This document shows positions 5,339-48,699 of a DNA stretch of 64,000 bases, in pieces. Origin of the DNA: Magnolia sinica (taxonomy: Eukaryota > Streptophyta > Magnoliopsida > Magnoliales > Magnoliaceae); contig NC_080578.1 in assembly GCF_029962835.1 (NCBI RefSeq), positions 102,527,759 to 102,591,758 on the forward strand, read 5' to 3'. Position numbers and translations under genes: made by a program. How positions within the stretch are numbered: the first letter of the stretch is position 1; each line of letters begins with the position of its first letter. The notes beneath the pieces were generated by a model, which was not told the origin of the DNA, searched no databases, and saw only the letters and a list, made by a program, of their open reading frames with translations.

Positions 5339-5373
5339 TGAAGAAGAGACAAAAAATTCAACGCAAAGATTCG

Positions 5374-5500
5374 TTGTGCACTGGGATAGTTGTGCGTTGA
5401 GATGGGTTGTGCGCATAATCCGTTGTGCGTTGGCATGCATTGTGCATAGAGTTCGTTGTGCGCTGGAATGTGTTGTGCGCAATGACATGTTGTGCAGAGG
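5374..5500. repeat. 16.5-bp minisatellite (TTGTGC)
   Basis: TTGTGC starts at 5374, 5390, 5407, 5423, 5440, 5456, 5473 and 5490: eight units alternating 16 and 17 bp. Two units make 33 bp, so the minus-strand frame shows an 11-residue periodicity containing (M/R)(R/C)TTH and NAQ elements. More scattered GTTGTGCGC copies follow at 5585-5655. Confidence 0.85.
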
Positions 5501-5744
5501 GAATTTACGCACAAAGAGGGATAGGCGGAAGTCCGAATGAATGGAATGAAACCAACTCCTGTTTATACAGTGCTCCTGGACCTGGGTTGTGTGCGAGGAG
5601 TCCAGTTGTGCGCAAGCGGTCCGGTTGTGCGCAAAGAGGAAGGTTGTGTGCAAAAAGGAAATAGAATGAAATTTGTCAACATTGATCCTACATTTTCACT
5701 TCGAGGATAGAAAGTCAAAAATGAAAGAAGTTTAAGAATTAAAC

Positions 5745-6190
5745 TATAACTAAAACACCCTAAAATTCGTTACTTACTATAGATAGTAAATTTTCTATGT
5801 AAGTGTCCCGTGTGGCTTAACCACGTTATTCTCCTAACTTTTCTAAACACTTTTCATGTTGTGCACAACTCCTAAAGCCCAACGGATGAAGAGTTATAAT
5901 CAAACTAAAACTTACTATTTATAGTAAAAACATAATTAAATATAGAATTTGGCCGTCGATATGATAGAATCTCATAAATTCGGTGTGGGCTGTTGCCTAA
6001 AGTAGCTCGTCTCCCACCCCAAAATCATATATGGTATGTCGAGTAACTTATTCCGGTTTGCGAGATATGCTTGTTTTAAGGTTTTGACGGTCTTGATGAC
6101 TTTTACCTCTTGGGCCTTCTCTGATCCGACCCGCTCTACATCAGTCCCCTCCACTTCAAAAGAATTTGTCCTCGAATTCTCGGGCTACTT
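5745..6190 (-). mobile_element. Ty3/Gypsy fragment: LTR piece plus pol 3' end
   Basis: Read on the minus strand, 6185-6150 encodes the end of a Gypsy polyprotein (EFEDKFF, stop), followed by the purine-rich AGTGGAGGGGAC polypurine tract and then TGATGTAGAGCGGGTC, a plausible LTR start. The LTR-like part recurs at 37755-38243 with clear identity: AACTCCTAAAGCCC, GGATGAAGAGTTATAATC and ACTTACTATTTATAGTAA are in both. No integrase or reverse transcriptase is left, so this is a relic. Confidence 0.55.
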
Positions 6191-6228
6191 CAGTTCTTGA
6201 TACTTAGTCACTACGCCAAAACAGTGAA

Positions 6229-6590
6229 AAAAGGACGGTTCAAAACCGTCTCAAATAACCAAAAAGGACGGTCATGGACCGTCGCATGGTCGTCATATTT
6301 TGACATGTCGTATTACTTAAAGGACGGTTGAAAACCATCATTCTTATTGGCGAAAAAAGGACGATCATGGACCGTCCTTAAAAAGGACGATCATGGACCG
6401 TCTCTTATGAGCCTTCAAAGGATAGCCATGGACTGTCCTTAAAAAGGACTCATAAACAGTCTCTTACGAGCCTTCAAAGGACGGCCATGGACCGTCCTTA
6501 AAAAGGACTGCTATGAACCGTCTCTTATGAGCCTTCAAAGGACGGTCATGAACCATCTCTTATGACCCTTAAAAGGACATTTTCAAATTT
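6229..6590. repeat. CACTA left subterminal repeats
   Basis: Roughly eight units of AAGGACGGTCATGGACCGTC-like palindromes alternate with CTTATGAGCCTTCAAAGGA. Subterminal repeats like these are where CACTA TNP1-type proteins bind in characterised elements. The binding role here is inferred from position and repetition. Confidence 0.75.
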
Positions 6591-7130
6591 GAGACGATCA
6601 ATATACACTTGTTACAATATATTTCATCGTATTCTTCCTGATATATGCTTGTTATATAATATATTTCATCATATTCACATTCACATCCATCTAAACCCAA
6701 ACTACTAAAATCCATCCAAACATAAACTACATTCATCTATACATAAACTACATCCATCCAAACACAATCTTATCCACATTACATTCATCCACGCATAATA
6801 CATATAAGTTTAACATCATAAATAAAAAAAGGAAAAAAATCAGCAACAATTTTCTTTTTGTGTCTTTCATCTAATAAAAAAATATTTAACCAACAAAATA
6901 TTATAATTCAGAATCATGAAGAATTGCAGAAACTTCTTCCAAAAAAGTGGGCACTTTTTTAAAATAAAACTGATCATTAAAATAAAACTAATGCAAGAAA
7001 ATAATGTAAAAAAGTGTTTCAATTCAAGTTAATAGAAACAACAACAAAAATTAAAGCTTTATAAAAAGGGGCATGTGTTAAAAGGGATACATTCTTGTTT
7101 GTTGCCATGTGATTAGGCTACATTATTACA
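6591..7130. other. AT-rich filler, no gene
   Basis: Low-complexity AT-rich sequence with short ACATCCAT(C/A)(C/T)A repeats at about 6685-6795. No frame or motif recognised. Confidence 0.5.
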
Positions 7131-7135
7131 GCAAT

Positions 7136-9650
7136 CGGGATCAGGTTTAAGTTTGAGTTTTCAAGTTTAGATTTAGGTTTAGGTTAGGGAGTTGAGACTA
7201 GGATTAGGTGTAGGTCTAGGTTTAAGGATTTGAGAATACATTTAGGTTTTAGGTTTAGGTTTAGGTTATAGGGGTTTAGGTTTAGGTTTTAGGTTTAGGT
7301 TAAGGTTAGGTAATAGGTTATAAGTTTAGGTTCTAGGTTATAGGTTAAGGTTAGGTAATAGGTTATAAGTTTAGGTTATAGGTTAAGGTTTAGGTTTAGG
7401 TTAAGGTTTAGGTTTAGGTTATAGGTTATAGTATATAGGTTATAGCTTTAGGGAATTGAGAATAGGTTAAGGTTTAGGTCTAGGAAATCGGGTTCGGGTT
7501 TAGGTTTGGGTTTTCAAGTTTAGGTTTAAGTTTAGGTTAGGGAGTTGAGATTAGGATTAGGTGTATGTTTAGGTTTAAGGATTTGAGAATACATTTTGGT
7601 TTTACGTTTAGGTTTAGGTTTTAGGCTTAGGTTTAGGTTATAAGTGCAAGTTACAGGTTTAGGTTTAGGTTAGGCTATAGGTTAAGGTTTAGGGAATTGA
7701 GAATAGGTTAAGGTTTAGGTTTAGGAAACCGGGTTCGGGTTCGGGATCGGGTTTACGTTTGGGTTTTCAAGTTTAGGTTTGGGTTTAGGTTAGGGAGTTG
7801 AGATTAGGATTAGGTGTAGGTCTAGGTTTAGGGATTTGTTAATACATTTAGGTTTTAGGTTATAGGTTTAGGTTATAGGTTTAGGTTTAGGTTTTAGGTT
7901 TAGGTTAAAGTTAGGTTATAGGTTATAAGTTTAGGTTATAGGTTATAGGTTATAGGTTTAGGTTATAGGTTTTGGTTTAGGTTTAGGTTAAGGTTTAAGT
8001 TTAGGTTATAGGTTATAGTATATAGGTTATAGCTTTAGGGAATTGAGAATAGGTTAAGGTTTAGGTTTAGGAAATCAAGTTCGGGTTCGGGATCGGGTTT
8101 AGGTTTGGGTTTTCAAGTTTATGTTTAAATTTAGGTTAGGGAGTTGAGATTAGGATTAGGTGTTGGTTTAGGTTTAAGGATTTAAGAATAAATTTAGGTT
8201 TTAGGTTTAGGTTTACATTTTAGGCTTAGGTTTAGGTTATATGTTTAGGTTTAGGTTATAAGTGTAGGTTATAGGTTTAGGTTTAGATTTGGTTATAGGT
8301 TAAGGTCTAGGGAATTGAGAATAGGTTAAGGTTCAGGATTGGGTTTAGGTTTGGGTTTTCAAGTTTAGTTTTAGGTTTAGGTTAGGGAATTGAGATTAGG
8401 ATTAGGTGTAGGTTTAGGTTTAAGGATTTGATAATACATTTAGGTTTTAGGTTATCGGTTAAGGTTTAGGTTTTAGGTTTAGGTTAAGGTTAGGTTATAG
8501 GTTAGAAGTTTAGGTTATAGGTTATAGGTTAAGGTTTTAGGTCATAGGTTTTGGTTTAGGTTAAGGTTATAGGTTTAGGTTTTGGTTATAAGCTATAGGT
8601 TTAGGGAATTGAGAATAGGTTAAGGTTTAAGTTTAGGAAATTGAGTTCGGGTTCGGGATCGGGTTTAGGTTTAGGTTTTCAAGTTTAGGTTTAGGTTTAG
8701 GTTAGGGAGTTGAGATTAGGATTAGGTGTAAGTTTAGGTTTAGGGATTTGAGAATACATTTAGGTTTTAGGTTAGGTTTAGGTTTTAGGTTATAGGTATA
8801 GGTTTTGGAATTTGAGAATAGGTTTAGGTTAAGGTTGTAAGTATAAGTTATAGGTTTAGGTTTAGGTTATAAGTATAGGTTTTGGGATTTGAGAATAGGT
8901 TTAGGTTAAGGTTATAAGTATAGGTGTAGGTTATAGGTTAAGGTTTAGGTTTATGTTATAAGTATAGGTTAAGGTTGTAAGTATAGGTTATAGGTTTAGG
9001 TTTAGGTTATAAGTATAGCTTTTGGGATTTGATAATAGGTTTAGGTTAAGGTTATAAGTTTAGGTTAAGGTTGTAAGTATAGGTTATAGGTTTAGGTTTA
9101 GGTTATAAGTATAGGTTTTGGGATTTGAGAATAGGTTTAGATTAAGGTTATAAGTATAGGTTTAGGTTATAGGTTAAGGTTTGGGTTTATGTTATAAGTA
9201 TAGGTTATAGGTTTAGGTTTAAGTTATAAGTATAGCTTTTCGAATTTGAGAATAGGTTTAGGTTAAGCTTATAAGTTTAGGTTAAGGTTATAAGTATAAG
9301 TTTAGGTTATAGGTTAAGGTTAAGGTTTAGGTTTAGGTTATAAGTATTGATTTTGGGATTTGAGAATAGGTTTAGGTTAAGGTTATAAGTATAGGTTTAG
9401 GTTATAGGTTAAGGTTTAGGTTTAGGTTATAAGTATAGGTATTGGGATTTGAGAATAGGTTTAGGTTAATATTATAAGTTTAGGTTAAGTTTATAAGTAT
9501 ATGCTTAGGTTATAGGTTAAGGTTTAGGTTATACGTATAGCTTTTGGGATTTGAGAATAGATTTAGGTTTAGGTTATAGGTTATAAGTATAGGTAATTGA
9601 GAATAGGTTTAGGTTATAGGTTTAGGGTGTGGTTTTGGTTAAGGGTATGG
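7136..9650. repeat. Degenerate telomere-like array, about 2.5 kb
   Basis: The array is built from GGTTTAGG, GGTTATAGG and GGTTAAGG hexamer-like units, close to but not the plant telomere heptamer TTTAGGG. It has a higher-order structure. A marker block (TTAGGGAGTTGAGATTAGG) recurs at 7187, 7540, 7793, 8139, 8385 and 8705, with spacings of 353, 253, 346, 246 and 320. From about 8760 a second block (GGGATTTGAGAATAGGTTTA) repeats with TATAAGTATAGG between copies. G-richness is confined to this strand. It lies inside the probable CACTA element, so it is interstitial and not a chromosome end. Confidence 0.85.
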
Positions 9651-28741: not shown

Positions 28742-31194
28742 GGGCCTGTTTGGTTTTCCCAAATAACAGTATATGGGTTGCAAGGTGCAATGATAACATT
28801 TCATAAGCATTTGTTTTTTTAATGTTTTTGGCAGCAATTAAAGGGCGGCAGCAGATGGAAGGATTCGGCGGTATTACAGTCGCCAAATCCATCAGAAATG
28901 CAGGTACTCGAGGATTTCGTCTAACGCTTGGATTTAAGACTGAAATGGATATGGTGGCCCGTGGGACACTCCAAATAGGTAGATACTGACGCTCAAATTT
29001 AAGTCTGAAAGGCTTCTATTTTCGTCTTTATTCTACAAATCGTCTTCCCAGTGAGACGAGATGGATTCTTTCACCACTCAAGTATGAACTGCCTGTCTAC
29101 CTCCCTATTTGCAGAAATCCTTTCCAGTTGTTACATTGCTGCTTCCCCTCCATGCATGGTAATCTTCTTCCCTTTCAATTTATATGCTAACCATGCTTGT
29201 CTCTCTATTTAACAGACTGTCAAGGTTAAATCTTACTCGTAGACTGCTAAATACCATCTTCACGGCTATGTGTTCTGTCGGAAATAGGATAGTCCCTCAA
29301 AGGTACGAGTTCTGATTGCTCTACAGTTTCCAATTATAGTTTTTTTCCTACCTTTAGTGGGTCTTGTGATTATGTTTATTAGGATTAACTCTCGGAATCT
29401 GTCATGTGGGTTCATACCGTGAATTGGTTTTTCGTTGATATGTTGAGGAAGAAGCAAAGGTCTAGCCACGTCGAACTTTCAGTAAGCTTCTGTGAAGGAG
29501 ACGCTTTTGATGGGGTACATGGAAAGAAGTAGCTTCTTATAATATTGCCTTCTATGGACCTTTGGATATACCGCAAATGGGGTATTTTGCCAGAATGGGG
29601 GTGGTCGTTGGTCCTTTCTTTATTCGTTACCAATTGTGGACTATAATGACATTACGGATGTTTGGTCCTTGGCTAGCTTTAATCGTCCCACACGTCATGC
29701 GTAACATGCAGAGGATGCCGGCCGAACCAACTGTTGCCTTTATGTTCTTGATAGTTTAGCTAATTCCTCCGTCCACATCTTGCCATATTTTTTTAAAGAA
29801 CACAAATACCATGGACAGATGGATATGTTTAGAAGAAGAAAAAATAAATAGAATGGCTAAAAACATGTTGTCAATAAGAAGAGAAGAAGAAAAAGAAAAA
29901 AAAAAGAAGACAGATTGACAGTGTTTGTTTTTGTACTCCAACCTGGCTTTCCTGTATGTGACTATGTAACAAACTGTTATGCTATAATAGAGAATTTGTG
30001 TAGATGAAACCACACTTGTGGTTCGGCACTATTAATTCATGAGTAGCTAGTTGAATCTTCAGTTGGATAGTCCATACAAGAAAGGGTCATGTTTGCCAGG
30101 ATCCCTCCATTATGTGTTGATGTTTGTGATTTCATATATGGTCTATTTAGATGTTTTATGTTCACCTTAAAAAATTTGATTTTAGAGCAACTGGAAAATA
30201 ATAAGTATCATCTGATTTTTTTCATTTGCATTTAAACCAATTGCTTTCTTAAATTTTTAACTTGAAATTGTAGCCATAAATGAACTTGTTGGTTAGAAAT
30301 ATTGCTTGATCTGTGTGAGTTAGAGATATGTCTCATCGATAATGAGGCTTGCAATTTGGATGGTTTAACTAATACATTACTTGAAGATGTAAGTAAGATG
30401 AGTCATCCAAATTTTGAGCAATGGTGTAAACTAACATTGAACCCTGGGCTATTTTTTATATGATTTATGTCCACCTCCCTTCATTTTCCAATGATTGACT
30501 CTTTTGGTTTGATCCTACTCAAGTGTGGTGACCTGTTTAAGTGGCATTCGGCTCATGTGATTGACTATCGTGTAAGCCCCACTGAAAAATGTAAGCCACA
30601 CATCATGTGGGACTCACCTTGGATGTGGGACACTCATCATTAGGACCGATCTTTGATGTGGGTTGTCTATCTAATTGGTTTGCCTTTCATTGCTATTTAT
30701 GAGAAACATATAATGAGGCTTTGGCCATTTGGAGCTTGGATACAGTTTTCTATCTTCGTTCTCTTTTATAATATATAAAATCTTTGTGGTGCTATCACAC
30801 TGTAGCATGATCTGTTATAGAAATTGTCTTGTTCCCAGCTTCCATGTAATATTTCTTTGGTCATTGTATATAGGCAGAGACTCTCTTCCATATAGAACTG
30901 GCAAACTCATCCGTGATTGAGGTAAGTGTGATTGTTTACTATTGACTATTTATGTTTTCTCTCTCTCAACTTTATATTATTGTTCATATTTGCTTCCAAT
31001 CAGTGGAAATGAAAATGTGATCATCACAAGGGCTGATATGTTTTTATAATCTATTTATTATATACATGCAGTAGGTCTTGTAAATGTTAGTGTTGATTTT
31101 CTCTAACAAAGTGTTTTAGAGAATAGCCCAATGTTTTACCACTTTTACAATTTTATAAATTAAAAGTAGCTATCTGGGAAAACCAAACAGGCCC
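28742..31194. mobile_element. PIF/Harbinger element, non-autonomous, 2453 bp
   Basis: The left end GGGCCTGTTTGGTTTTCCCA and the right end read inward, GGGCCTGTTTGGTTTTCCCA, are identical for 20 bp. Both flanks carry TAA (28739-28741 and 31195-31197), the 3-bp target duplication of this superfamily. I find no transposase, Myb-like gene or other recognisable protein inside, so it would need transposase in trans. Its right subterminal stretch (CTTTTACAATTTTATAAATTAAAAG) resembles the left subterminal stretch of the coding element at 31373 (ACAGCTTTATAAATTAAAAG), so the latter is a plausible source of transposase. Confidence 0.85.
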
Positions 31195-32073
31195 TAACAG
31201 TAATCAGCCTATCTGGCCTACATTACTCTATTGACAGTCCAAGTGCCCTAGTGAATCTCAGATCAGCATTTGGTTGAAAGGCTGTCTGTAAGTGCCCCAA
31301 ATCAGAATTGGGTTGAATATGTAGTTGTGGTCAGTTTTGAAATTAACTGGGTGTTTGGGAAGACCTTAATAAGGGTCTGTTTGGTTTTACCAGATAACAG
31401 TAATTGGCCTGTAATGGGCAATTATGACTTTTCCACTCTTACAGCTTTATAAATTAAAAGTTAGATATACATATATATGTATATCCAACTGTTAATTCAT
31501 ACTGATACTACTTACTCAATATATGTGTACTCTAACAGTGAAATCAAATAATATTTTTTTTCGAATTTGATTTCTTATTATTTAACTGTTCTGATTGTAT
31601 GATCAGTTTTGAGATTTGAATATTGCACCCATTCCAGGGCTCCATTATCAATATGACTGTTTACTGTGTATAAAGGGCTGGATTAAACTTTGGTTGATTA
31701 AGATAGTTCACTGTATTAATTAGTTATACAATATAGTCCATCATTGCCATGCCTCAACTGTCATCCTGTCTGGATTAAACTTTCATTATGAAAATGCTGT
31801 ATCGAACTCGTGGCCCACCAATGGTCAGTCCCGTTAGATGAGTGATCCAGATGCAGAAACTGCATGCCAAGATGAACAGTATACATGATTACAAAGGTCA
31901 TGTGTAATGCTTGTTGGCAAATATCAATTTCTGGTTTGTGTATCCCAATTATGCAGCAGACTGAAAGTTTATAAAATATGTAAATTTGGGCCCATATAGA
32001 GTATTATATGTTTCTATTAAGGATAGGGCATGGAGTTCGATTGCATTGGACTGTAATCAGCATGATTTTGTTC

Positions 32074-32077
<4 letters not shown>

Positions 32078-32153
<76 letters not shown>
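32078..32153. repeat. (TA)n microsatellite
   Basis: About 38 uninterrupted TA units in the 5' leader of the Harbinger element. Confidence 0.97.
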
Positions 32154-32156
<3 letters not shown>

Positions 32157-32374
32157 AATTGATTTTTTGTAATATATTAAACCAAACCTAGCTTTGAGGG
32201 TCAAGACAATCCACATACTAGTTTGATGATCGTAAAAAAAATAAAAATAAAAAACAAAATAAAATAATAATAAAATAATAAAAAAACTCAAACAAAGTTG
32301 AATCCATGTGACCTTGTAAACAGACAACTTAAGCTATATGCACTGGTAATGAGCCCTAGTGGGGGTGGCTAACA

Positions 32375-33918
32375 ATGAATTGTTTTTTGAATATCAATTC
32401 ATTGTATACATTCGAACAAACAGAGTTACAAATGGAACGGGTGCTTGCTTTTAGACTACTGGATGCTGACTCTATTTCATACGTTTGTTGTACAAGTTCA
32501 TATCATAGCATAGAAGAACATGGATGGACGGAAGAGGAGATGGCTGCCTTTGCAGCTTCAATTGCAGCAGCAACTACAGTCATTGCGATTGGAAAATTTT
32601 ACAATAGTCTCTTTCTTAGGATACCCTGGAGAGTTGATGACTATGAAAGAAGTAAGATAATTAATGGGATAATTAGAGCCGGAGATAATGAGTGCCTGAC
32701 ACAACTCCGAATGAATAAGAATATTTTCTTTCACCTATGCTCGTTTCTCAGGGATAGGAATCTGCTACTGGATAGGAAACATGTAAATATGGAGGAACAA
32801 CTTGTCATGTTCCTTCATACAGTAGGGCATAATGTGCGAAATCGTGTCATTGGACATCGTTTTATATGATCAGGAGAAACCATAAGCAGATATTTTTCTA
32901 AAGCATTGGATGTAATTGTAGGACTATATCCTGAGTTTGTAAAACTCCCCGGTGTAGAAATAGCTACGAAGATTTTATCCAATCTCAATTGGAGCACGTA
33001 TTTTCAGGTATTGATCATGCTAATCACTATTATCCATGAATATCATTATTATAAGATTATGTCTCTTTTCACTTTTTTTCCTGATAAATCATTTTCAAAT
33101 TAGGATGTATTGGTGCAATTGATGGAACCCATATACCCGCTTATGTCACTACGATGGACAGTGTCACCTATCGTAACCAAAAATGGGTTCTATATCAAAA
33201 TGTAATGGCCGCCTGTACGTTTGATATGAAGTTCGTCTACTTGCTAGCCGGATGGGAAGGTTTGGCCTTCGACGCACGCGTCTTACAGAGTGAGTTGACA
33301 CATTCACACGATCATTTTACAATCCTAGAGGGTATTATAGTGTTCACCTATGTAATAGAAGTTATTTGTTAACTTAAATAATGTTAAACTGTATATTAAT
33401 CATTACTCATAATTAATTGTAGGTAAGTACTACGTAGTTGATGCTAATTATGCGCATTCGCTAGGATTCATGGCTCTGTATCGAAGCGTACGGTACCATC
33501 TCAATGAATACTGCACGGATCACAAGCCTTGTAACAAGAGAGAATTATTCAATTACAGACATGCTCAACTACAAAATGTTGTAGAGTGGATTTTTGGAGT
33601 ACTAAAAGCTCGATTTTTAATCCTCAAATCAGCTCCACCATATTTACTTTTAACACAACTCAAGATAGTTATCACATGTTGTGTTTTACACAACTTTATT
33701 TAAGGATTTGGGGGAGATGGTATTGTTGCAAATGAGGACCCATCAACAGATGTAGCGGATGGAATAGATCCATCTCCAGTTGAGTTAAGTTTTCAAGAAG
33801 ATGGACTGATGGTTATACGAATGCCACACAACGTGAGAGAGACGAATGGAACAAGTTTCGAGACAATATTGCTACTAGGATGTGGAATGATTACCATCCT
33901 GTGTGTCGTAGTTTGTAA
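32375..33918 (+). pseudogene. Harbinger transposase (DDE_Tnp_4 type), broken
   Basis: Exon 1 (to 33007) has a helical N-terminal region and the HARBI-type block TVGHNVRNRVIGHRF. Exon 2 (33104-33331) has IDGTHIPAY with the first catalytic Asp, QNVMAACTFDMKFVYLLAGWEG, and the second Asp in FDARVL. Exon 3 (33423-33918) has YYVVDANYAH, ELFNYRHAQL, the catalytic Glu in VEWIFGVLKARF and CCVLHNFI, ending ERDEWNKFRDNIATRMW. The introns use CAG|GTATTG and ATTAG|GA, then AGG|GTATTA and TGTAG|GT. Damage: TGA at 32867-32869 (Arg in the sister copy), a missing base at the start of exon 2, TAA at 33701-33703, and a frameshift near 33807. The enzyme would excise and reinsert DNA at TWA targets. Confidence 0.88.
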
Positions 33919-34191
33919 AAATGTCTCGATTTTTTGTTTGTTTGTACAAGGGAGAAAGGGATATTTTTACTTGTTTTCCATCCCTCACTTGTCTATAGTA
34001 AATATCTCCCTGTTGGTCAAATAATTATATTTTTTTTGTACTCCATGTCAACTAATATTTAGAATCTATGAATGTGTGGGCATGTATGTTGCAAAATATC
34101 AATGATTTTAAGTTGAAAACCTGGGATTTTACTGATTATTTTAAACTGTTTATTTGAATCTATGTAGATATCTGAAGATTCCAACGGAGAT

Positions 34192-35358
34192 ATGTCACCT
34201 AACAAGAGTAACACACAATCGATGCCTACAAAAGCATCCTGTCCATCGCCAAGTGTTACACCACGGAGGACCCCAAGGAAAATTAAACAGAAATCGACCG
34301 ATGAAAATGGGTCATCTGGTGGTGTAATGCGATGGACCGATGAGATGGACGACTATCTTATTAACACTCTTATAAAAGTTATTGCAAATGGCCATAAAAG
34401 TGCCAACAGATTTAAGAATAAGACATATAAGACAGTTGTCGATACTGTGAAGGGTGCCATAAGGATAGCGTTACAGGAGAAACATGTTGGGAATCACCTC
34501 CGTACACTGAAGAGGCTGTATTTTGAAGTGTGCGAGACTTTGAGTGCTTCTGATTTTGGATGGGATGACGATAAGAAGGTAGTCACTACTCTAGATGACG
34601 TATGGAAAGATTACATACGGGTGAGAATGAGATCGATCCAAGTTTTTAATACATTCATTAGAGTTGTTTATTTTCTTTATAATTAGTAAATTTGATATAC
34701 GCAAAAGTAACCTTGTATTGATACATTCATTCTTCTTGTCATAGTCACATCCTTACGCCCAACATGTACGAGGCAAAGCGGTGCGGAGGTATGATGACTT
34801 GACCGTGCTAGTGGACGTCGTTCAAGTATAGGCAACATTCCAGATTTTATGGCTTCTAGACGGTCTAGGGATACAAATATTTTGCCGAGAACGTCTACTG
34901 ATCAGAACGATGATATGCTCGTGCTATCGGGCGATGACATAGGAGACAGTGCGGAAGGGATACAATGGTCGTACCATAGTCGTGACAGTACCCACAGGGC
35001 CCACCGAAGTCCAAATGGAAATGAAAAAAATTCCATCAACACAGGCAGCACTTCCACGTCAAGGAAGAGAGCACGGATGAGTCGCCCCTGTGACGTAATT
35101 GGGCAAGGAATAAGCGAGGTTGTCGATGCAGTGAAGTCACTAGCGATAACAATTCACCAAGGAAAGGACATGGTCCGGATGTCACAGATTGTTCCTGCCT
35201 TGGAACAGATTGAAGGGCTGACAGGACATGAGATCCTTCACACTACAAAGATTGTATCGAAAGATGAGCACCAATTTGCCTCCTTCCTTTCACTCCCCGA
35301 GCACAGGAGGTTGGACTTTGTGTTGATGCTGCTTGCACCGGACCACTCCTCCGACTGA
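34192..35358 (+). pseudogene. Harbinger Myb/SANT-like protein
   Basis: The ATG at 34192 starts an N-terminal low-complexity segment with PRRTPRKIKQK. A Myb/SANT-like DNA-binding domain follows (RWTDEMDDYLINTLI, NRFKNKTYKTVVDTV, HLRTLKRLYFEVCETL, GFGWDDDKKVVT-type end with DVWKDYI), about residues 44-145. An intron (about 34630-34744, acceptor CATAG) leads to SHPYAQHVRGKAVRRYDDL. A frame change near 34800 joins the C-terminal part (MASRRS at 34849 to LAPDHSSD). The damage looks like a small deletion at a GACCGTGCTAGTGG-like repeat. In PIF/Harbinger elements this protein binds the transposon ends and helps import transposase. The sister gene is at 41915-43062. Confidence 0.82.
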
Positions 35359-35885
35359 GCTCAGTTGGACATACATGGACTTTGTTTGTTTCTTTGGATG
35401 TTTTTTTGGACATCTTCTTTTTGAACAATTACTTTTGGTTGTTTTGGATAACTGTATGTGACATTATGTGGATGAATGTGCCTGTATAGAACAGGTTATG
35501 GATGTGCCTATATAGAACGGGCTTTGGAAAGACCTTACTACTAGGATGGCAGTGTTGGACAAACTGTCATCCTGTTGATATTTTGACAATTGTTTGCATT
35601 TTTTTAAGACTTGGTGGCTATGGTTTGTTGATACGTAACTGTCTGTTACACTGCATAACCTGCTTTTATTTTTGGTTTACTCTATCGATGATCTTTATAA
35701 TAATTGTAAGTTTTTTGTGTAAACCCATCCGTCAAATTTTGCAGGTGTTCGTAGGGCCAGTTCAGGTATGTGAGAATAAGTACTTCAATACCTTATAATA
35801 TATTCCACTCAGGTGATATTTGAATTTGATCATCTCATTTTTTATATTCCACTCAGATATTTTTGCTTTATTTGATAATGTGAAG

Positions 35886-36311
35886 ATGGTGAAAAAGGTA
35901 TATGTTGTGTTCAACGGTCGCCACCCTGGATTATATTATGACTGGGAGGAGTGTCGGGTGCAAGTGGAGGGATTTTCACGGGCACGTTTTCGTGGATACA
36001 AGTCGGCAGTCGAGGCATATCTTGAATGGTCTGAATGGTCCGAGAAAATGGATCTTCCAGCTGTCCCACGGGACGAGATGGTAGATGACCAGGAGAGTGT
36101 TAGATCGCAGCATAGAGAACACTACAACGCCATCTGCATGAGTCATCCTATTGGACGGACCTTGGCAATGACCTCTTCAGCCCCATATGACTTGGGCACA
36201 AAGAGACAGGGAGGTGTTACAGACGAGGGAGACAGTGGGGCATTGGTCAGATTCATCTTTGGAATCTTGGTATTGGTTCTTCTCATTCAACTTATATCAA
36301 CGCTGAAGTAA
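35886..36311 (+). CDS. RNase H1-type hybrid-binding-domain protein with C-terminal TM helix
   Basis: The ATG at 35886 (open frame upstream to 35820) gives 141 residues. Residues 1-47 match the N-terminal hybrid-binding domain of RNase H1, the same fold as the caulimovirus viroplasmin (Cauli_VI) domain: VYVVFNGRHPGLY, WEEC, VQVEGF and ARFRGYKSAVEA keep the Tyr, Gly, Pro-Gly, Trp, Cys and Gly-Phe landmarks. In eukaryotic RNase H1 this domain grips RNA:DNA hybrids. Residues 50-115 are polar with no known domain and no RNase H catalytic core follows. The last ~22 residues (VRFIFGILVLVLLIQLI) look like a membrane anchor. There is no internal stop. It lies after the Myb-like gene on the same strand. 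A diverged homologue occupies the same position in the element at 40255-48576. Function is unknown. Confidence 0.8.
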   Translation: MVKKVYVVFNGRHPGLYYDWEECRVQVEGFSRARFRGYKSAVEAYLEWSEWSEKMDLPAVPRDEMVDDQESVRSQHREHYNAICMSHPIGRTLAMTSSAPYDLGTKRQGGVTDEGDSGALVRFIFGILVLVLLIQLISTLK

Positions 36312-36599
36312 TGTGCACAGGTTGTGTTTGTATGGACTTTATTTGTGGTTGTTTTGGATAACTTCATGTTTATTTTTCTTGATGGACAGTGGTTACTATT
36401 TTGATTTTTTTTTCTTGACAATGAATATTTAGGTTTCTAGACTTCGATTGTAGTGTATCTTTTTCATCCATTACCCTTCAAATCCGAATTTGAAGGGACC
36501 CATGTACCCACATTTATTCTGCCAGTATGCTTGCCTACTAGATTCAGTTGTTGCAATGTCAACCTCGAGACACGTCCGTTTGAAACAAGTGAACCAAAT
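36312..36599. other. Harbinger 3' non-coding segment
   Basis: AT-rich sequence between the third gene and the 85-bp repeats, with no gene. A phrase GGTTGTTTTGGATAACT at about 36346 also follows the Myb-like gene at 35437, suggesting duplicated gene-trailer sequence. Confidence 0.45.
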
Positions 36600-36856
36600 A
36601 ATGCTGATATACATTTTGGTGCATTTCAATAGATGTTATGAACCACACAATATGTCACAAAGATCATCATGTGGTCCACCACGTAGTGCTGATATACGTT
36701 TTGGTGCATTTCGATATATGTTGTGGACCACACAATCTATCACAAAGTTCATCATGTGGTCCACCCAAAAGTGCTGATATACGTTTTGGTGCATTTCGAT
36801 ATATGTTGTGGACCACACAATCTATCACAAAGATCATCATGTGGTCCACCACAGTG
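36600..36856. repeat. 85-bp tandem repeat, three copies
   Basis: GCTGATATAC starts at 36603, 36688 and 36773, exactly 85 bp apart. The two later units contain GTGGACCACA and, about 26 bp on, TGTGGTCCAC, a 10-bp inverted pair able to form a hairpin. The first unit has a degenerate left arm (ATGAACCACA). The array lies about 370 bp inside the right TIR of the Harbinger element and could serve as subterminal binding sites. Confidence 0.88.
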
Positions 36857-37436
36857 CTGGATATCAAATTTTACCATATGTGAAGATTGGGTCCCATGAC
36901 CAGTTGTCCGGATGTTGCCCAAATTGCTGAAAGGAGAATCACATATATTCGGTACTACTATAAAAATCAAACAACTGATTATAGTTGTTGTAGAGCTGAG
37001 ATGGTGGACACTATAAGAGCAAAAAAGCAATGATGTGACTACTACATTGTCTATCCAAACACGTTCCTATTGAATTTTCATCTATTACACTCATAACATA
37101 CTAAAAAACAAGCATGGGAAAGCAACATACAGGTATTCAAACAATCATTGCTAATACATGTAAAGACGTAATCATGTTGTCTTTACACCCAACTACCGTG
37201 GTAATTGGAAAACCAAATAGGCCCTAAGGCATACGGGAGAATGATCTGGTGCATGATCCAAAGATAGAAACTGATATCTCCACGCGCGCGACATTCGCTT
37301 AATTGAGTAAATCGTACCGAGATTGACGGCCATGATCTGTTCGTCTCACAGGTATAAATACCAGAGAAACTCATTGCAACAGGGACGCAATATCTCGCAC
37401 CTCTCATCTACTCTACACAACTTAGACCCAGTTTCC

Positions 37437-39841: not shown

Positions 39842-39844
39842 TTA

Positions 39845-40251
39845 GGGCCCGTTTGGCCGGGTGGATCGGAAGGGATTGAATGGAATTAGGGTGGATGGCA
39901 TGGATTTCAAGGTAATGATGGTGTTGTCAGTGGATTGTCTTAAGATCCATGGGATTGCTATATGGAGTATGTTTGGCACGCCCGGCCAATCCCGGGATTA
40001 AACCTTCCCATCCCTTCCAATCTCTCGAACCCAACACGTTCCAGGCATATTTGAACGGATTAGGGTGGATTGGACGGGATTTAAAGGCAATGATGGTGTT
40101 GTCAGTGGATTGTCTTGAGATCCATGGGATTGCTATATCCGCGGATCAGGTCACCCCATCTATTTGGCATGTCCGGCCAATCCCGGGATTTAACTTCCAA
40201 TCCCTTCCAGTACCATCCAATCCCTCCCAATCCGCCCGGCCAAACGGGCCC
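39845..40251. mobile_element. Tourist-like MITE, 407 bp
   Basis: The left GGGCCCGTTTGGCCGGGTGG and the inward right end GGGCCCGTTTGGCCGGGCGG form a strong TIR. Both flanks carry TTA (39842-39844, 40252-40254). The interior holds two copies of AATGATGGTGTTGTCAGTGG (about 39914 and 40090) within a ~175-bp internal duplication. The same phrase in weaker form (TTTAAGGTAATGATGGCAGA) lies just inside the left end of the large element at 40255, so the MITE looks like a relative of it. Confidence 0.88.
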
Positions 40252-40399
40252 TTAGGGCATGTTTGGCTGGACCGATCCCATGGGATTAGGAGGTATGGGA
40301 TCGGTTTTAAGGTAATGATGGCAGAGTTAGTGGATGGTCGGGCATCCATTGGGATTTTCATATCCCAATACTAAAAGATCTGCCTGTTTGGATTGCAAC

Positions 40400-41029
40400 T
40401 ACCATCTTGAGATCATGTCAGAGATAGTGTTTGGATTGACATGGGATTGGATTTGAATCCAACTGATCCCATGGGAAGCACGTTTGGAGCTTCAAGTTTT
40501 ACCGTACGGGATTGGAGAATGCAAGCGCTGACTAGGAACGATTTGTTGACCCAAATTGCATTGCCTACCATACCCAATCCAAACCGTCCGCTACTAGTGG
40601 CCGGTTCTCTGTGGGACCCACAACAGCCTCCTGTGTCATCCGAACCCTCCATATGGGGTTTTGTATCATCCAAACCATCCACAACGATGTCGATGGGGTT
40701 AAAAGCAGTATATGACCCGCACCTTGTTGCGTGTGTACACTGGTTTACATGACATCTCATTTTCGTCTTCTGGGTCATGCCATAATGCACCAGAATTCTA
40801 TTTTGTTGCAACCCGGTCTTCATCTTAGCCATACACAACATGCTCTGATTCCCTTTATGCATACGTGTGGATATTTACATGTGTGGATGTTTACGGAATC
40901 AGATCCACTTGGGGCGTTCTGATATCAGGTAATAATGTATGACCTACTATGACTATACCATCTCATGAAATCATCGAAATTTAAAGAGTTGTTCAAAGTA
41001 TTAGTGTCACACAAAACATACCCAAGAAT
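40400..41029. other. Harbinger trailer, no gene
   Basis: Sequence between the left TIR and the third gene. CCATCCGAACCCTCCATATGG and ATCATCCAAACCATCCAC near 40637-40680 form a short repeat. No protein was recognised on either strand. Confidence 0.4.
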
Positions 41030-41431
41030 TTATAATTTAATCATAATATACAATGTGAAAAAAACAACCATTACGCCAATCAAGAGTTCCAATAATTTAT
41101 CTGCGGCTGAAGGGGGGAGATCATCAGTAGACGTGGGCCTCAACATAGTGGCCCGGGATGTCCAATGGATAGACAGCATAGCCGAATGATGGACATCAAC
41201 TGCGTCCACTGATCTTCCCACTTCTCCCGAGCGAGCGTCACATCCATGTGTCAGTGGTGCAGTTGCCAGACCGAAAAAACTGTCCTAGTATGCCGTTGCA
41301 TCTCTCCAATTCTTAAGCGCTCAATGGCGGCTCCCACTGTATCCCTCAACCTCGACTCGTGCATCATCCCATGTAAGATAAATACCTGGTTGACAACCAA
41401 CCAAGACAACATAGTATTTTTCCTTCGCCAT
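41030..41431 (-). pseudogene. Hybrid-binding-domain protein with TM helix, second copy
   Basis: The minus-strand ATG at 41431 opens a 133-codon frame ending at 41030. Codons 1-36 read as the RNase H1/viroplasmin-type N-terminal domain: KYYVVLVGCQPGIY, then TWDDARVEVEGYSGSR. Two in-frame stops interrupt it, TGA at codon 37 (41321-41323) and TAG at codon 49. Both are one C-to-T step from Arg or Gln codons. After these the same frame continues without shift to a hydrophobic C-terminus (LLELLIGVMVVFFTLYIMI), matching the C-terminal helix of the 35886 gene. Sequence identity to that gene is low outside the domain, but order and length agree. TTTTGCAG directly before the ATG could be a splice acceptor. 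Confidence 0.75.
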
Positions 41432-41914
41432 CTGCAAAAAGAGGTCCAGTATCGCAATGAATAGCAAGAAATTAAAGCTCATATATTTGTACATGTATAC
41501 ACAGAGATAAAGCGGTGACATCCACGTTGCAATGAAAAGTATACAATCTATTAAAACCATTTGTAGACGAAAATATGGGATCGTACCTTCTCTTCTTACG
41601 ATGTGTGTGGTCTAGTTATACAACAAAAGCAAATACCCAAGAGTTAGATTAAATAATTACATATCAAGTAAAATGAGCCATCCTGGGTCCAAGGCCAGTG
41701 TATACCAGTGGCCCTAGAAGATATGTGGAATCCAAAATTATAAGCAATATAAAGAAGATATGTGGAAGTTATTACATGCCCCAAAAAAAAAAACCAAAAA
41801 TAACTTAAACCATCCAAAATAAAAGAGTTTCTTCTGCCAATTGTTCTCCACCTGAATTACCATTTGAATGGTACCCAACGTTCAAAGTTTTTAAACCCCA
41901 AAGATCAGCAACCA

Positions 41915-43062
41915 TCAAACAGAACCACCACCGTCATTACCCTTCAAATCGTCCAGAGTTTTCTTAAGCCAATCAACGCAACGATCCGGCCGTAGGGCAA
42001 CAAAAAAGGAGGTAAGCTTCTCGTCTTTATTCAAGAGCTGACCAACCTCAATAAATTCAGCATTGGTTAGCCCCTGAACCTCTTCCAATATGTCTAAGAC
42101 ACATCACGTTCGATTGACATCCTTTCCAACAGAGAATTTATGCATTGCCTCTGCGACACTCGTGAGAGATAAGCCTACGACATCACATGGTCGAGCAGGT
42201 CGCATCCTTTTTGTTGTTGCACTTCCACCATGACTACTATCGAAATCGGTTCTACGAGTGGGTGTGTCCTGAAACGGCCTATTTTTCCTTGTTTGAATGT
42301 CCATTGACCGGCCATATATGTCAGGTGATTCATCGAGGTTTTCCTTAGATAGGTCCACGGTAGCATCTGTATCATCGTCCAGCTCTCTCCACGAATCATT
42401 CAGGTCTCTATAAACACGAGACGCGGATGCCGCAATGTTCTGACTTCCTTGCGCATATCTTCCTGTCGCCTGGTGTGACCCAACAATCACCGATAAATCA
42501 TCCACCCGTTCAATTCGCTTGCCACGCAACCTCTTAGCTCGCAGATGAGACTATACATATAATAATTTTGAATATCAATAAATGTCAGTTGAAATTAAAA
42601 TTTGTATACAACCAAAACAACAATATAGGTTACCTTTAAATATTCCTCCCAAACCTCGTCTGGGGCCGTCACCACCATGCGCTCACTGTCCCAACCGAAA
42701 CCGCTCGCAGCCAGCATGTCCTTTATATCACCGTACTCCCTCTTGTGATACCTCAATCTATTTTGAACATTTTGTCAGGTAAGAAGTATTTGTGTACGTC
42801 TATGGACCGCATCGGCGGCCGCTTGATATGCTTCTCGTTTGAAGTCATTATCTCCCTTTCTACCTAGCGCAATTTACTCAATCAAGGTGTCAAACAAAAC
42901 TTGATCCATAGTTCCAGTCCATTTGATCTTCGTAGCGCGATAGGATGGCTCTGCCAGAGATATTACGGACTTCTCACGTGGTGAGGTACGTGTCGGTAGA
43001 ACCAGGCTACGCAACGGCGATTGCATTGGAGTAGGAGTAGATCTACTCAAATTGTCAGACAT
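41915..43062 (-). pseudogene. Harbinger Myb/SANT-like protein, second copy
   Basis: The ATG at 43062 (MSDNLSRS) is followed by a Ser/Pro-rich start and the Myb/SANT-like domain (KIKWTGTMDQVLFDTLIE, then NRLRYHKREYG, GFGWDSERMVVTAPDEVWEEYLK). An intron (about 42632-42550) leads to SHLRAKRLRGKRIERVDDL and a tail with DVVGLSLTSVAEAMHKF and LNKDEKLTSFFVALRPD. Stops at 42874-42876, near 42776 and at 42104-42106 break the frame. The family match to 34192-35358 includes the SH..A..(V/L)RGK start of exon 2 and the RPCDV(I/V)G block near the end. It would bind element ends. Confidence 0.78.
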
Positions 43063-43313
43063 ATCACCTATGTGCAAATGGGAAGGCAGTTACGCAAAGA
43101 GAATAATGCGGAATACAGTATGTGTCAATTATAAGGTTTAGCCGAATGAAGGAAAATGTATAGGAATAAACAGTTGTTGATGTATGTAGCAAAATTTGTG
43201 AGCTTCGGTGTACAAAGTGCAAAAAATCCTACTTCGAAATTGTACAAAAATCATTAAGCATCTATTACTTTAGTTATGCAGTATGTCATGATTATCACAA
43301 TAACCAAGTAGGA

Positions 43314-44719
43314 TTATCGAATCCTACTATTGTTTTGAGTGTCTTCCCACATGCGCTCCACGATCCTATCACGAGTTCTGATCCAATCATCCTTCGCTCG
43401 TTAAGTGACATGGACTAGCCATTGCCTTTCATCAATTGTCGATACCTCATTTGGGGTAGGTATAGTCTCGTCATCACCCACTAGTACACCTATGTCACAC
43501 AAGTCTTGGTCTGATCCATCTTCACTCCATATGAAATTATGTGGCACACAACAAGCAACGACAATTTTAACTTATGTATCAAAGAGGTATTGCATAGCCA
43601 TCTTTAAAATTGGAAATCTTCCCTTCATCACACCGAAACAGCGCTCAATTGCATTTCGTAATTGCGCATGTCGATAGTTAAACAATTCTTTCACATTCAT
43701 GGGTGATCTCCCGCTACGATATTCCTGTAGATGGTATCGAACTCCACGATAAGGGGCTATGAACCCTGGTGAATGAGCGTAACCTACGTCTACGACAAAG
43801 TACTTTCCGACACAATAATAGGAATGATTCTTTCAGTCTTGCACTGGGACAAATTATATGCACCAATCAACATTTAAATGATACTGAATATTATTTACCG
43901 TGGGGCACAATAAGTGGATCGTCTGATCGTGTCAGGGCATTGTGTAGGACCCGTGCATCCAATGCTAAACCTTCCCATCTAGCTAACACATACAATATTG
44001 ACATATCAAAGGAACAAGCAGCAAGTACATTCTATGACAAGATACCCTTTCAGTTATGAAAGCTTGCATGTTTTGATACTGCTATGTGTGTCGAAATATG
44101 TGTCCCATCGATCACACCCACGCAATCCTATAGTGGCAGAGGTCTTGAGCCTATAGGATTAGTATCATATTATATCTTTATTTAAGTGTAGATTAATAAA
44201 TGATCAGTTGGTCTAAAATGATACCTGAAAATAACTGGACCAACGTGTATTTTCCTGAATCTCAATCGGCGTTTGTGCGCCTGCCTGCTTAACATATTCA
44301 GGGTACAGGGAAATAATTGCATCTAAAACTCGGTGAAAGTGACGACTTATAGTTTCACCAGATCGACAAAATCTGTGTCCTATCACACGATTTCGGATGT
44401 TGTGGCCAACCGTATGCAAGAAGTACACAAGTTGTTCCTCCAAACTAACGTTACGTGTATCGCGTAGGGTCATATTATCACGCACTACTTCACATAGATG
44501 GAAAAATGCGTCCTGCTTCATCCTAAGTTGGGTAATGTAATCCCTATCATTACTCCGAATAATTGAATTAATAAATTCAGTACGCTCATCATCCCCTATC
44601 CGAGCCGGTTCTTTAAACATATAGTGCCGACAGTATTCCCCAATAGCTACTACACATGCAGCTGTTGTAAGAATGATAATGAAATCAGCCATCTCTTCCT
44701 CATCTTCATCATCCATCAC
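43314..44719 (-). pseudogene. Harbinger transposase, second copy
   Basis: Exon 1 (44719-44225, MMDDEDEEEMADF) has TVGHNIRNRVIGHRFCRSGE and ends SSYFQ before a GT donor. Exon 2 (44127-43899) has DCVGVIDGTHI with the first catalytic Asp, NVLAACSFDMSILYVLARWEG, and LDARVL with the second Asp. Exon 3 (from about 43810) has YFVVDVGYAHSPGFIAPY, ELFNYRHAQLRN, IERCFGVMKGRF with the catalytic Glu, and ends RIVEHMWEDTQNNSRIR. In-frame stops lie after FHN (44057), after ILS (44036), after LFDT (43572) and after HVT (43408). Each is one C-to-T change from a Gln or Arg codon. The exon 3 acceptor appears to have lost its AG. Confidence 0.85.
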
Positions 44720-47700
44720 CTGTCAACCACATACGTATACAGGCGAAAATCGAGGATTTAACAAAATCGTCAACCTCTCAATTAAAGTGTTACAAAAATC
44801 GAGTTGATAAATACGTTCCATGCAGAATAATAACTGAATTGTTCTGCACTGACCATCCCATTTGCCATTTATAGCTGAAAAGTGTGCCCAATGTGTCCAA
44901 CAGCCTTCTGGCAATACCTGTTTGAATATTTAAAGAGATCCATGATGGAAACCCTCTTAAAGTCTTACTAAATGATGTAAATAGAACTCTCTTCCTACAC
45001 GTTATATCCTAAACAAGTTTTAAAAAGAAGAAAACATCGATCTATAACAACAAGAATCATTAATAAAGAATCATTAAATTATGATGTTTATGCAAGGAAT
45101 TATAAGATGGTCATGTGCATGGCAACTGTAAGCTCCCGACCGAGCCTTCAAAGAGCACCACCAAATCATGTACTCTGTTTTTGAAAACCCAATGGTGGTA
45201 TGCCGGTGAATTTCACAAACTTTAAGCAATTTCAGAGATGTATGCACATGAATATCACATATTACCATGCACATGTTCAAACTAGCAGTATCCACAACAA
45301 TTGGGTTGTGATAGAACATATCGAAACTATCAGTTGCAACTATATGGATGCAATGTTGCTATAGGGGACTGGAAAACCCAAGCATGAAAGAGGAAACGTA
45401 TTTAGTGTTTAAACCAGTTGACCATGACAATTGAACTAATTGTCAAGCAAGAGCATCTAACAAATGAGTTGAATCTGCATAATTTTTCAACTCATGCCGT
45501 GAAATTATCTAACCTGAAACAGATCTCATTTTATAGTTGTGACACGGACATAGGGAGTGCGCTGCAAGTTTTTTACCTATGGCCAGCTGAATCATTGTTT
45601 TGGTTCTATACAAAGAGATGTCCATTTACAAGAAATGCATATCCTGCAGCCATTTCTTCCTTCGGTGTTCAATTTGGTGCAGCACTAGTTTTGAATTAAT
45701 GGTGCAGCAGCAGGGAATTCTTAAAACTATTTCGTATGAAAAAGTAACCCAATCGTTGGGAGTATTTGTAGATATGCATATACAGTTATTTCGCAATATT
45801 CAAAATAAAACAGTATGAGTTATATGCCTGAAATACAAAAATCCTACTAAGAGCAACGTGTGAATGTGTGGTCTACAGAATGGGTCCTACTTTGGAGGAC
45901 AAATGCTTCTAAATCTATATTGAGACTGTCTTTTATGGCTTGGGTGGCTTTTATAGGCAAACCAAAAATGTGAAATATGATGCTCTAGTTTAGAATTATT
46001 TTGATTGGCACCTGCTTCTTCTGTGCATCTTCTATTGAAACTGTCCCAGATGGACATGCAGATTTTAATTTTCTTAATGTTTTTATTCTTTTCGGCTTTA
46101 TAAACGAATCTATTTTAACATGAGTTGGTGACCTGGCTTCTTCTCTCCCATTGAGCATCTCAAGCTATCTCAAGCCTATTCTCATGTTCATGAAGGTCCA
46201 TATTCAGCCAACAAAGGTCCATATCCAGCCATCTTCTTTATGACTCCACATGCTTTTGATTCCAATAACAGTACAAAAACACAACGGAACATGTGGTACC
46301 AACATGAACTGAAGAAAGGTATATCAAAATCGTATCAATTCAAGATAGTAGGCAATAGAGATGAACAAAGATTGAGTATTCCATATTATCACAGCTACAA
46401 GCCCTGAGCCATCCAGAAATATGCACTGATTGCACACTAGGCAATCATGTACAATAAGTGATCATAGTAATGAGGTACAATAAATGTTCATAACATTTTC
46501 AAAGTATAAGCCAGGTCCTAAAACCGGCTCCCAATCTTAATCCATGCATCAAATATGTAACTTGTGCTAATCATAGATATCAAGTATGAGAACTTCTTCA
46601 CCCACTGACATGAAAATGAAGAAAAGAGGACAAAAGAGATTTTTATTTCGAAATTTCAACATTTCCAAGAACAACAGAAAGAAACTCCTTTCATAATCTG
46701 ATAAAATAGTCACATTCTGGAAAAAATTCTGGGTCACACCATGCTGCCAAAACAGATACAATAAAGCAGAGATGAAAACACCCTGGTGATGCTAGGTAAT
46801 GAAGTAGCGAGTGTTCATCATGTGGATGCATGTGGATGGTTAAGAGTAGTATGACATGACCATCCACATTGCAAAACATTAACCGTTTGACAGATTTTCT
46901 TAAGCCAATCAACACCCAGAAAAAGAAATTTCAAGTACTACGCATCCCATAGAGGGAGATCACAGAAACAGTCAACATACACAGAGTACAACAGCCTAAT
47001 GAAGACATTACAGGTGTACATGCAAACGATGTTTCTAAAATTCTGGATATGTGAAATTCAGATACAAAATTTCAGCAAATTATTTTATATCTAAGGATTT
47101 CTTGGATTTGAAAGGTAGAAAGTAGTGAGGAGTAAAACTGTAACCATCCATATCATGCAACGTTCACTACTACTACACGGGATCAAACAATTCACAAATC
47201 AATTGAAAGATAAATGAAATGTGAATCTGAAATAGTGATTCCATATTTCATAATTTATCCACTGCCTGAAAGTGCTTCCCTCACATGGGAAACTGCTATC
47301 GAAATCAGCGTTCTCAGCTACTTGAAAAAAGACGGCACATCCTCACTGTACAACTGGGGATTGTTATACTGAGATGTAGGACACCCGCAATCAAATTGGA
47401 AATGTTAAGCCATGAAAATAAGAAAACCTTGCTCAGATCGATTTCAACCAGTCGGTATAGATAAATGGTGACGGTAAAAGGGAACAACCATCGTTTCATT
47501 TTCACCATAGTAAGAAAAAATAGAAGAATAAATAAATAGAAACAAATATATGGAACATATATCAAGTTGAAGTTCCAACGGATATCCTTGCCATTCATGA
47601 ACACCAAATTGTTCGGTGCCGATAACGGGGTGCCAACGGTAACAGGCAATAAGTGTACTCAAGTAATATATAAAGAATAACAAAACACAAAGCTATTCTA

Positions 47701-48240
47701 GTATTTTTTTCTTCTTTTTTGGCTACTCAATCAGCATCATACAACAAGTTGTAATTCTCCAACACCCACTGACCATGTCATGAACGACCAACTGACGTTA
47801 TCGTTCTGTGTTAGGTCCGAGTATGAAGGATTTCATTCAAAAATCCTTTTCCAATCCATATCCTGCTCTTAGCCAAAAGAGGCGTTAATCGTGGGTGCAT
47901 GCGTAGGTACAGATCATACTGTCGTACCTTGTTGCAAAGCATAAGAAAGTAGAATGGATTTTGAGTACTTGACTACTTGGAAGTTGAAAGAGATTAATTT
48001 GGTGTTCGTAAACAGGGACAACATCCGATTGTAGTGTAGATCCAAACTGAAACCGCCCGCAACGGCCAATTCCTAAAGCAGGAGACAAATTGGGAGAAAA
48101 TCAGGGCAAGGAAGAGCGTACCTGACGCAAGAACGGCGGTCCGCAGCCAGAGACCGGAGCTTACCTTCTCTGCGTAGGCCGATGATGGGAGCTCGACATG
48201 CCGTATCCATGGCTAAATAGCCGCTGATGGATGTCACTGA
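44720..48240. other. Long Harbinger leader, no gene recognised
   Basis: About 3.5 kb with no domain on either strand. Plus-strand GATTTTCTTAAGCCAATCAAC near 46892 repeats a phrase at 41953 (GTTTTCTTAAGCCAATCAAC) in the 3' part of the Myb-like gene, so part of this leader seems to be duplicated internal sequence. Otherwise uninformative. Confidence 0.4.
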
Positions 48241-48699
48241 CCGACGTCATACCATCGATTGATCATCTCTGATAGTACGGTCCTGATGGTGGGAAGGGAT
48301 GAAGCAGGTGCGACGTCGTTTCCTCTCTCCGTACTTGCGTAAATCCATCTGTAGACGGCAGGGCGAAATCCCGCGGGATTTGTTGCTGGGCTCGAGGAGA
48401 GGAGGAGGTGGGATGGGATATCTCGTCCATATCCAACCATACACAATGACCGATCCCGGGGATAGGTTTGAAATGCAGATCCCGTGCGAAAGCAAACGCA
48501 CGCGTGGGACGGGCACACGGGATCGCGTGATCCCATCCATCGTAAGCCGTGCTACTGCGTCTACCCAAACACGCCCTTAGTGATTTAGACGCTTGATGTT
48601 AATTCCCGCATTGCTTACTGTCTTCTTATTCATATTTTAAAATTTTAAAAACTATCCTTGTTAAAAATCATACATGTTCTAAGAGAGAGTGAGTCCTTT

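Follow-up and report, generated by a model that had tools for sequence, protein, structure and literature searches.

Introduction

Typical autonomous PIF/Harbinger transposons are described as carrying two ORFs, both of which are required for transposition (PMC9179366). An accessory gene is on record in ISL2EU of the Harbinger-like superfamily, where a YqaJ exonuclease gene replaces the Myb gene (PMC9179366). The nearest match listed in the open-licence PMC literature to the gene discussed below is a viroplasmin gene captured by a fungal Helitron: helpo1.3 of Pleurotus ostreatus is a DNA transposon carrying a PF01693 gene, capE, and is reported as one copy (PMC4289320). PF01693 is the N-terminal, hybrid-binding domain (HBD) of RNase H1. 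Human RNase H1 binds heteroduplexes through this domain (PMC5003356), and in vitro the related domain of the caulimovirus transactivator/viroplasmin protein TAV/P6 binds dsRNA as well as RNA-DNA hybrids (PMC5902531).

The Magnolia sinica elements described here share with the two-gene PIF/Harbinger elements a DDE_Tnp_4 transposase, a Myb/SANT-like gene, terminal inverted repeats (TIRs) and 3-bp TWA duplications, but add a gene for an HBD and a predicted membrane helix, placed after the Myb gene and ahead of the right end. The sequence and predicted fold of the HBD are those of RNase H1, whereas the product, of 141 aa, has a predicted membrane helix in place of the RNase H catalytic domain. With TAV it shares an HBD-type domain, the structural matches running across the HBD; TAV is long and multi-domain (PMC3836500), while the third-gene product consists of HBD, linker and tail. 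Unlike the accessory gene of ISL2EU, to which it is unrelated, the Magnolia gene is added beside the Myb gene, and in contrast to the single helpo1.3 copy, which is read as a capture, it keeps one place in diverged elements. Among the titles and abstract openings listed for the open-licence PMC literature there is no description of a Harbinger gene combining an HBD with such a tail; subscription papers and repeat-database reports lie outside that scope.

A third gene within a Harbinger element

The window, that is, the whole 64-kb stretch of Magnolia sinica DNA that was analyzed, contains a Harbinger element of 5852 bp (element 1; 31373-37224, plus strand). Its TIRs differ at 2 of 15 bp, and equal target-site duplications, TAA, flank it on the left (31370-31372) and on the right (37225-37227); element bounds were obtained throughout by scanning for matching ends with equal target duplications. 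The remains of the transposase gene lie in three tblastn segments on the plus strand (32375-33912), with a match to PF13359 (DDE_Tnp_4; E 2.4e-10 in 33470-33703) and in-frame stops at 32867-32869 and 33701-33703. The Myb/SANT-like gene follows in two exons on the same strand (34192-35358), with a match to PF12776 (Myb_DNA-bind_3; E 1.2e-17 in 34192-34686) and, by eye, one frame slip near 34800. The first-pass annotation had placed the third gene inside a TIR-delimited Harbinger element, downstream of same-strand transposase and Myb/SANT-like genes and with two stops in the transposase; each of these points was recovered. Element 1 is a PIF/Harbinger transposon by its transposase, Myb/SANT-like gene, TIRs and 3-bp TWA duplication; as it carries more than two genes, we treat it as a variant that is still PIF/Harbinger. 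An 85-bp unit is present in three tandem copies (36593-36852) downstream of the third gene and ahead of the right end, and a lone Harbinger/MITE-type terminus is found upstream of the element (31177-31197).

The third gene lies at 35886-36311 on the plus strand, with its ATG at 35886 and its stop codon ending at 36311; the list of ORFs also gives the same frame with a TTG start upstream of this ATG. The 141-codon frame is uninterrupted, as had been claimed. Residues 4-44 of the product (35895-36017) match PF01693 with an E value of 9.7e-14 and 51.8 bits, the curated cut-off of the family being 21 bits. No other Pfam family was found in the product at E values up to 1, and the RNase H catalytic domain is absent; a reading of the gene as a truncated host RNase H1 was rejected, the product being without that domain by Pfam. 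A sequence search of the PDB retrieved the human RNase H1 HBD (3bsu, E 1e-5) and the yeast domain (1qhk, E 9.3e-5).

The AlphaFold2 model, built on an alignment of 15 rows, has a mean pLDDT of 75.3 and a pTM of 0.44. Block means of pLDDT are 92-97 over residues 1-50, 46-64 over residues 61-120 and 95-96 over residues 121-140, and the order of the predicted structures is strand, strand, helix, strand, helix and finally a helix at residues 117-140. Foldseek placed chains of 3bsu at ranks 1-5 and 1qhk at the sixth, and 3bsu_F superimposes on the model with a TM score of 0.86 on the target and an rmsd of 1.2. Caulimovirus transactivator/viroplasmin proteins occur often among the structural matches to viral models. 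Profile, PDB sequence search and predicted fold thus agree with the RNase H1-type N-terminal domain that had been proposed, the PF01693 match being significant where its absence had been named as the outcome that would speak against the proposal.

The C-terminal helix (residues 117-140; 36234-36305) is hydrophobic, the top Kyte-Doolittle 18-mer (KD18) of the last 30 residues having a mean of 2.81. Together, the hydropathy and the predicted helix uphold the claim of a C-terminus resembling a membrane helix. The layout seen by hydropathy and in the model is that of a tail-anchored protein: one hydrophobic helix at the C-terminus, the HBD at the N-terminus, and no N-terminal signal segment.

In the human HBD, we take W43, K59 and K60 to be the residues that contact nucleic acid. 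Across 14 copies of the Magnolia gene the W is present in 14/14 and the second position is K or R in 13/14, with the third conserved in 0/14.

A second element in the window

Queries with the element 1 proteins against the remainder of the window led to a second Harbinger element, absent from the first-pass annotation, in which the order transposase, Myb, HBD and tail is repeated. Its candidate bounds are 40255-48576 on the minus strand, with 3 mismatches in 15 bp between the ends and equal duplications, TAA when read on its own strand. By tblastn, remains of the transposase lie at 43317-44683 and those of the Myb/SANT-like gene at 41918-43062, and the third gene, with HBD, linker and hydrophobic tail, is found at 41030-41431 (all on the minus strand). 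Its layout is like that in element 1 and the tail is present; the HBD part contains two internal stops. The left end of element 2 is 8.3 kb away, and the element may contain an insertion. A stretch of about 0.4 kb with Harbinger-like ends, GGGCCCGTTTGG and CCAAACGGGCCC, abuts the right end of element 2 (39842-40254). It seems to share the TAA of element 2 and resembles a MITE inserted at the junction.

Recurrence across the genome

In the 1.84 Gb searched, PF01693 gave 1159 first-look candidates; 150 of these were scored, and 150/150 were above the cut-off. The best 20 of the 150 scored HBD loci (L009-L028) were taken with flanks of about 7 kb on the upstream side and 3 kb on the downstream side, and searched with transposase and Myb queries from the window, L020, L024, L029 and L030. 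Both genes were found upstream on the same strand in 13 of the 20, and at least one of them in 15, L017 having the transposase only and L010 only a short Myb remnant. Homologues in this genome are therefore not usually without Harbinger genes, which the first-pass annotation had named as a second outcome that would count against its proposal. At the other five (L009, L011, L012, L018 and L027) transposase and Myb were absent within about 7 kb. Within the fetched loci, the opposite strand was free of transposase and Myb matches; L014 has an extra partial transposase match downstream. A transposase at 14/20 loci has a binomial P of 8e-10 with p set at 0.11, a rough value that leans on the window's own density of two elements in 64 kb. 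The fetched loci were all picked through the HBD, so the counts are shares of HBD loci, not of Harbinger elements.

The arrangement is regular. The distance from the Myb match to the HBD is 313-1747 bp in 16/17 loci (4507 in L013), and a Harbinger-type right terminus lies 1.1-2.1 kb downstream of the HBD in 12 of the best 20. In each of three further loci, picked for long open frames, the transposase and the Myb gene are accompanied by an HBD frame that closes with a hydrophobic helix (3/3). Of the 25 elements tested, four (element 1, element 2, L011 and L024) had ends with equal duplications; the scan rule found none in the other 21/25, which may extend past the fetched stretch or have diverged ends. 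L024 is bounded at 7876 bp and carries transposase, Myb and an open third gene of 141 codons, and L011 is a bounded Harbinger derivative of 2922 bp (5348-8269 of the locus) with an open third gene and no transposase. An apparent excess of open third genes in loci without transposase (5/6 against 2/14; Fisher p 0.007) was withdrawn, because L024 is open too and L018, which had been counted as open, is without an ATG.

These results confirm the first-pass annotation and extend it, the third gene recurring more broadly than claimed, in diverged elements with the same gene order. That it is a genuine gene of a PIF/Harbinger lineage in Magnolia sinica we regard as very probable.

Two lineages and their exons

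The copies fall into two lineages. Lineage A (element 1, element 2, L029, L030 and L031) has HBD, linker and tail in a single exon. The HBD exon of lineage B (L009-L028) stops at a donor, and a second exon encodes linker and tail. The tail terminates the frame in 4/4 open unspliced copies (element 1, L029, L030 and L031). Under a splice rule that ignores hydropathy, seven of the 20 lineage B copies (L009-L012, L019, L022 and L024) are open to a hydrophobic C-terminus, with 139-143 codons. Twelve more of the 20 have a hydrophobic tail in the best of three frames past stops or slips, the remaining locus being L026. L018 is open with another donor, but its ATG is lost. In simulations from the L019 tail, an open frame with a KD18 of at least 1.6 persisted in 34%, 20% and 10% of runs at 20%, 30% and 40% divergence, respectively. 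By this measure a hydrophobic tail in any single copy is unsurprising, while its recurrence across copies is surprising, and a chance origin of the tail was set aside.

The product is small, of about 120-145 aa, with an HBD, a disordered linker and a predicted C-terminal membrane helix. Two RefSeq proteins of 141 aa agree letter for letter with our products (P0002 with L011 and P0003 with L019), and P0004 agrees with the L010 product at 133/134 residues and ends earlier. The L011 product is thereby annotated by RefSeq as a gene (P0002).

Among the related proteins retrieved by the protein searches (1, 70 and 28), many have an RNase H domain. Three, P0008, P0014 and P0073, combine an HBD with a C-terminal hydrophobic stretch (KD18 3.29, 2.42 and 2.48, respectively), which by sequence hints at a wider spread of proteins of this layout. 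In olive, P0009 and P0011 carry a tandem pair of HBDs, with no helix at the C-terminus. The tail of P0069 is weak (KD18 1.16); this protein and P0080 of kiwifruit have their C-terminal parts in common.

Selection and co-inheritance

The first-pass annotation had pointed to selection across copies as a check, and we measured it as pN/pS. Pooled over ten lineage B genes (45 pairs; three genes with stops, which were masked), pN/pS is 0.23 for the HBD, 0.81 for the linker and 0.68 for the tail, in loci picked by HBD score, a choice that favors a conserved HBD. The lineage B transposase segment has a pN/pS of 0.20 (five loci, 10 pairs). In lineage A, where synonymous sites are saturated, the HBD (0.41, 10 pairs) is less constrained than the transposase segment (0.17, 3 pairs). 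The HBD is under purifying selection, and the linker is near neutral and fast-changing.

Over all loci, HBD distances rise together with those of transposase and Myb (r 0.66-0.88, 0/5000 permutations each), a result partly due to the split between lineages A and B. Within lineage B, r is 0.43 for tnp_b (0/5000 permutations), 0.39 for tnp_a (34/5000) and 0.47 for myb_a (2/5000). HBD distances do not follow those of tnp_c within this lineage (r 0.03, 2063/5000).

Possible functions

The proposed mechanisms overlap in part, and all are inferred. The C-terminal helix would be a tail anchor that keeps the HBD on the cytosolic or nuclear side of a membrane, presumably the ER or the nuclear envelope. 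There the HBD would bind duplex RNA or RNA:DNA hybrid made by the element, and this binding could shield element RNA from the silencing machinery or hold it at the membrane. Such a membrane-tethered binder, protecting or holding element RNA, is our leading guess among the mechanisms, and a tentative one. The equivalent TAV domain is dispensable for silencing suppression and sits in a segment that binds TOR and the ribosome (PMC5902531), and we counted this against the account of the gene taken whole. Also counted against it were the third contact position, conserved in none of the 14 copies, the pN/pS of linker and tail, the saturated synonymous sites of lineage A and the weaker constraint there on the HBD than on the transposase segment, the lack of correlation with tnp_c within lineage B, and the five lone HBD loci among the best 20.

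The start of the HBD exon bears on another proposal, specific to lineage A, by which the Myb gene would use this exon as an alternative 3′ exon and a Myb-HBD-membrane protein would limit transposition, the DNA-binding partner being held at a membrane. CAG or TAG stands 0-5 nt ahead of the start codon in 20/25 copies, the others being L012, L021, L022, L023 and the copy in element 1 (GAAG). The Myb exon of lineage A ends in a phase-0 donor in 5/5 copies; since the HBD exon opens at AG|ATG, the two would join in frame, and the RefSeq models P0012 and P0016 do carry Myb-HBD joins. In lineage B, however, extra bases ahead of the ATG put the join out of frame, and P0002 and P0003 begin at the HBD ATG, not at Myb. 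We consider a fusion regulator unlikely.

Equally unlikely, in our view, is an R-loop tether, in which the protein would bind RNA:DNA hybrids at the element and fasten the locus to the nuclear envelope, aiding excision or re-insertion. The human HBD co-localizes with hybrids and stabilizes them in cells (as cited in PMC6356060), and the inner nuclear membrane is a conceivable site for the C-terminal helix; the lack of conservation of one of the three contact residues that we assume for the human domain argues the other way.

A TAV-like HBD might instead bind ribosomal proteins or TOR and promote, at the ER, the translation of messages from the element, as TAV has this domain type in its TOR/eL18-binding segment (PMC5902531) and the product model has structural matches to TAV proteins. 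This we find less probable still, given that the HBD alone is common to the product and the long, multi-domain TAV, and that no sign of polycistronic translation appeared in this analysis. Finally, it is very improbable that these elements contain, by chance, an HBD brought in by some other mobile element or by a piece of a host gene: for all the abundance of first-look candidates, the five lone loci and the captured viroplasmin genes known in a fungal Helitron (PMC4289320), the gene order and Myb-HBD spacing are constant, the gene is in both lineages, and the bounded elements L011 (itself a Harbinger-ended element without transposase) and L024 disfavor a nested element or captured fragment.

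Returning to the tail-anchored RNA binder, the account taken whole, with a genuine third gene, a membrane anchor and a role in binding duplex or hybrid RNA, stands a little short of an even chance. With more reserve, we suggest that such a binder may be an old, selected component shared by plant Harbinger elements of one large clade, which perhaps spans the flowering plants, and that it lets the transposon act at a membrane. That action would perhaps consist of shielding element RNA from silencing or of tethering R-loops to the nuclear envelope.

Implications

The third gene accounts for Magnolia sinica gene models that go by 'uncharacterized' or 'ribonuclease H-like'. A transposase and a Myb-like partner are the described requirements of Harbinger transposition; the selected extra gene offers a specific candidate for a transposon counter-measure against silencing. 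If the proposed role is true, some cut-and-paste transposons would manage their own RNA or their own place in the cell.
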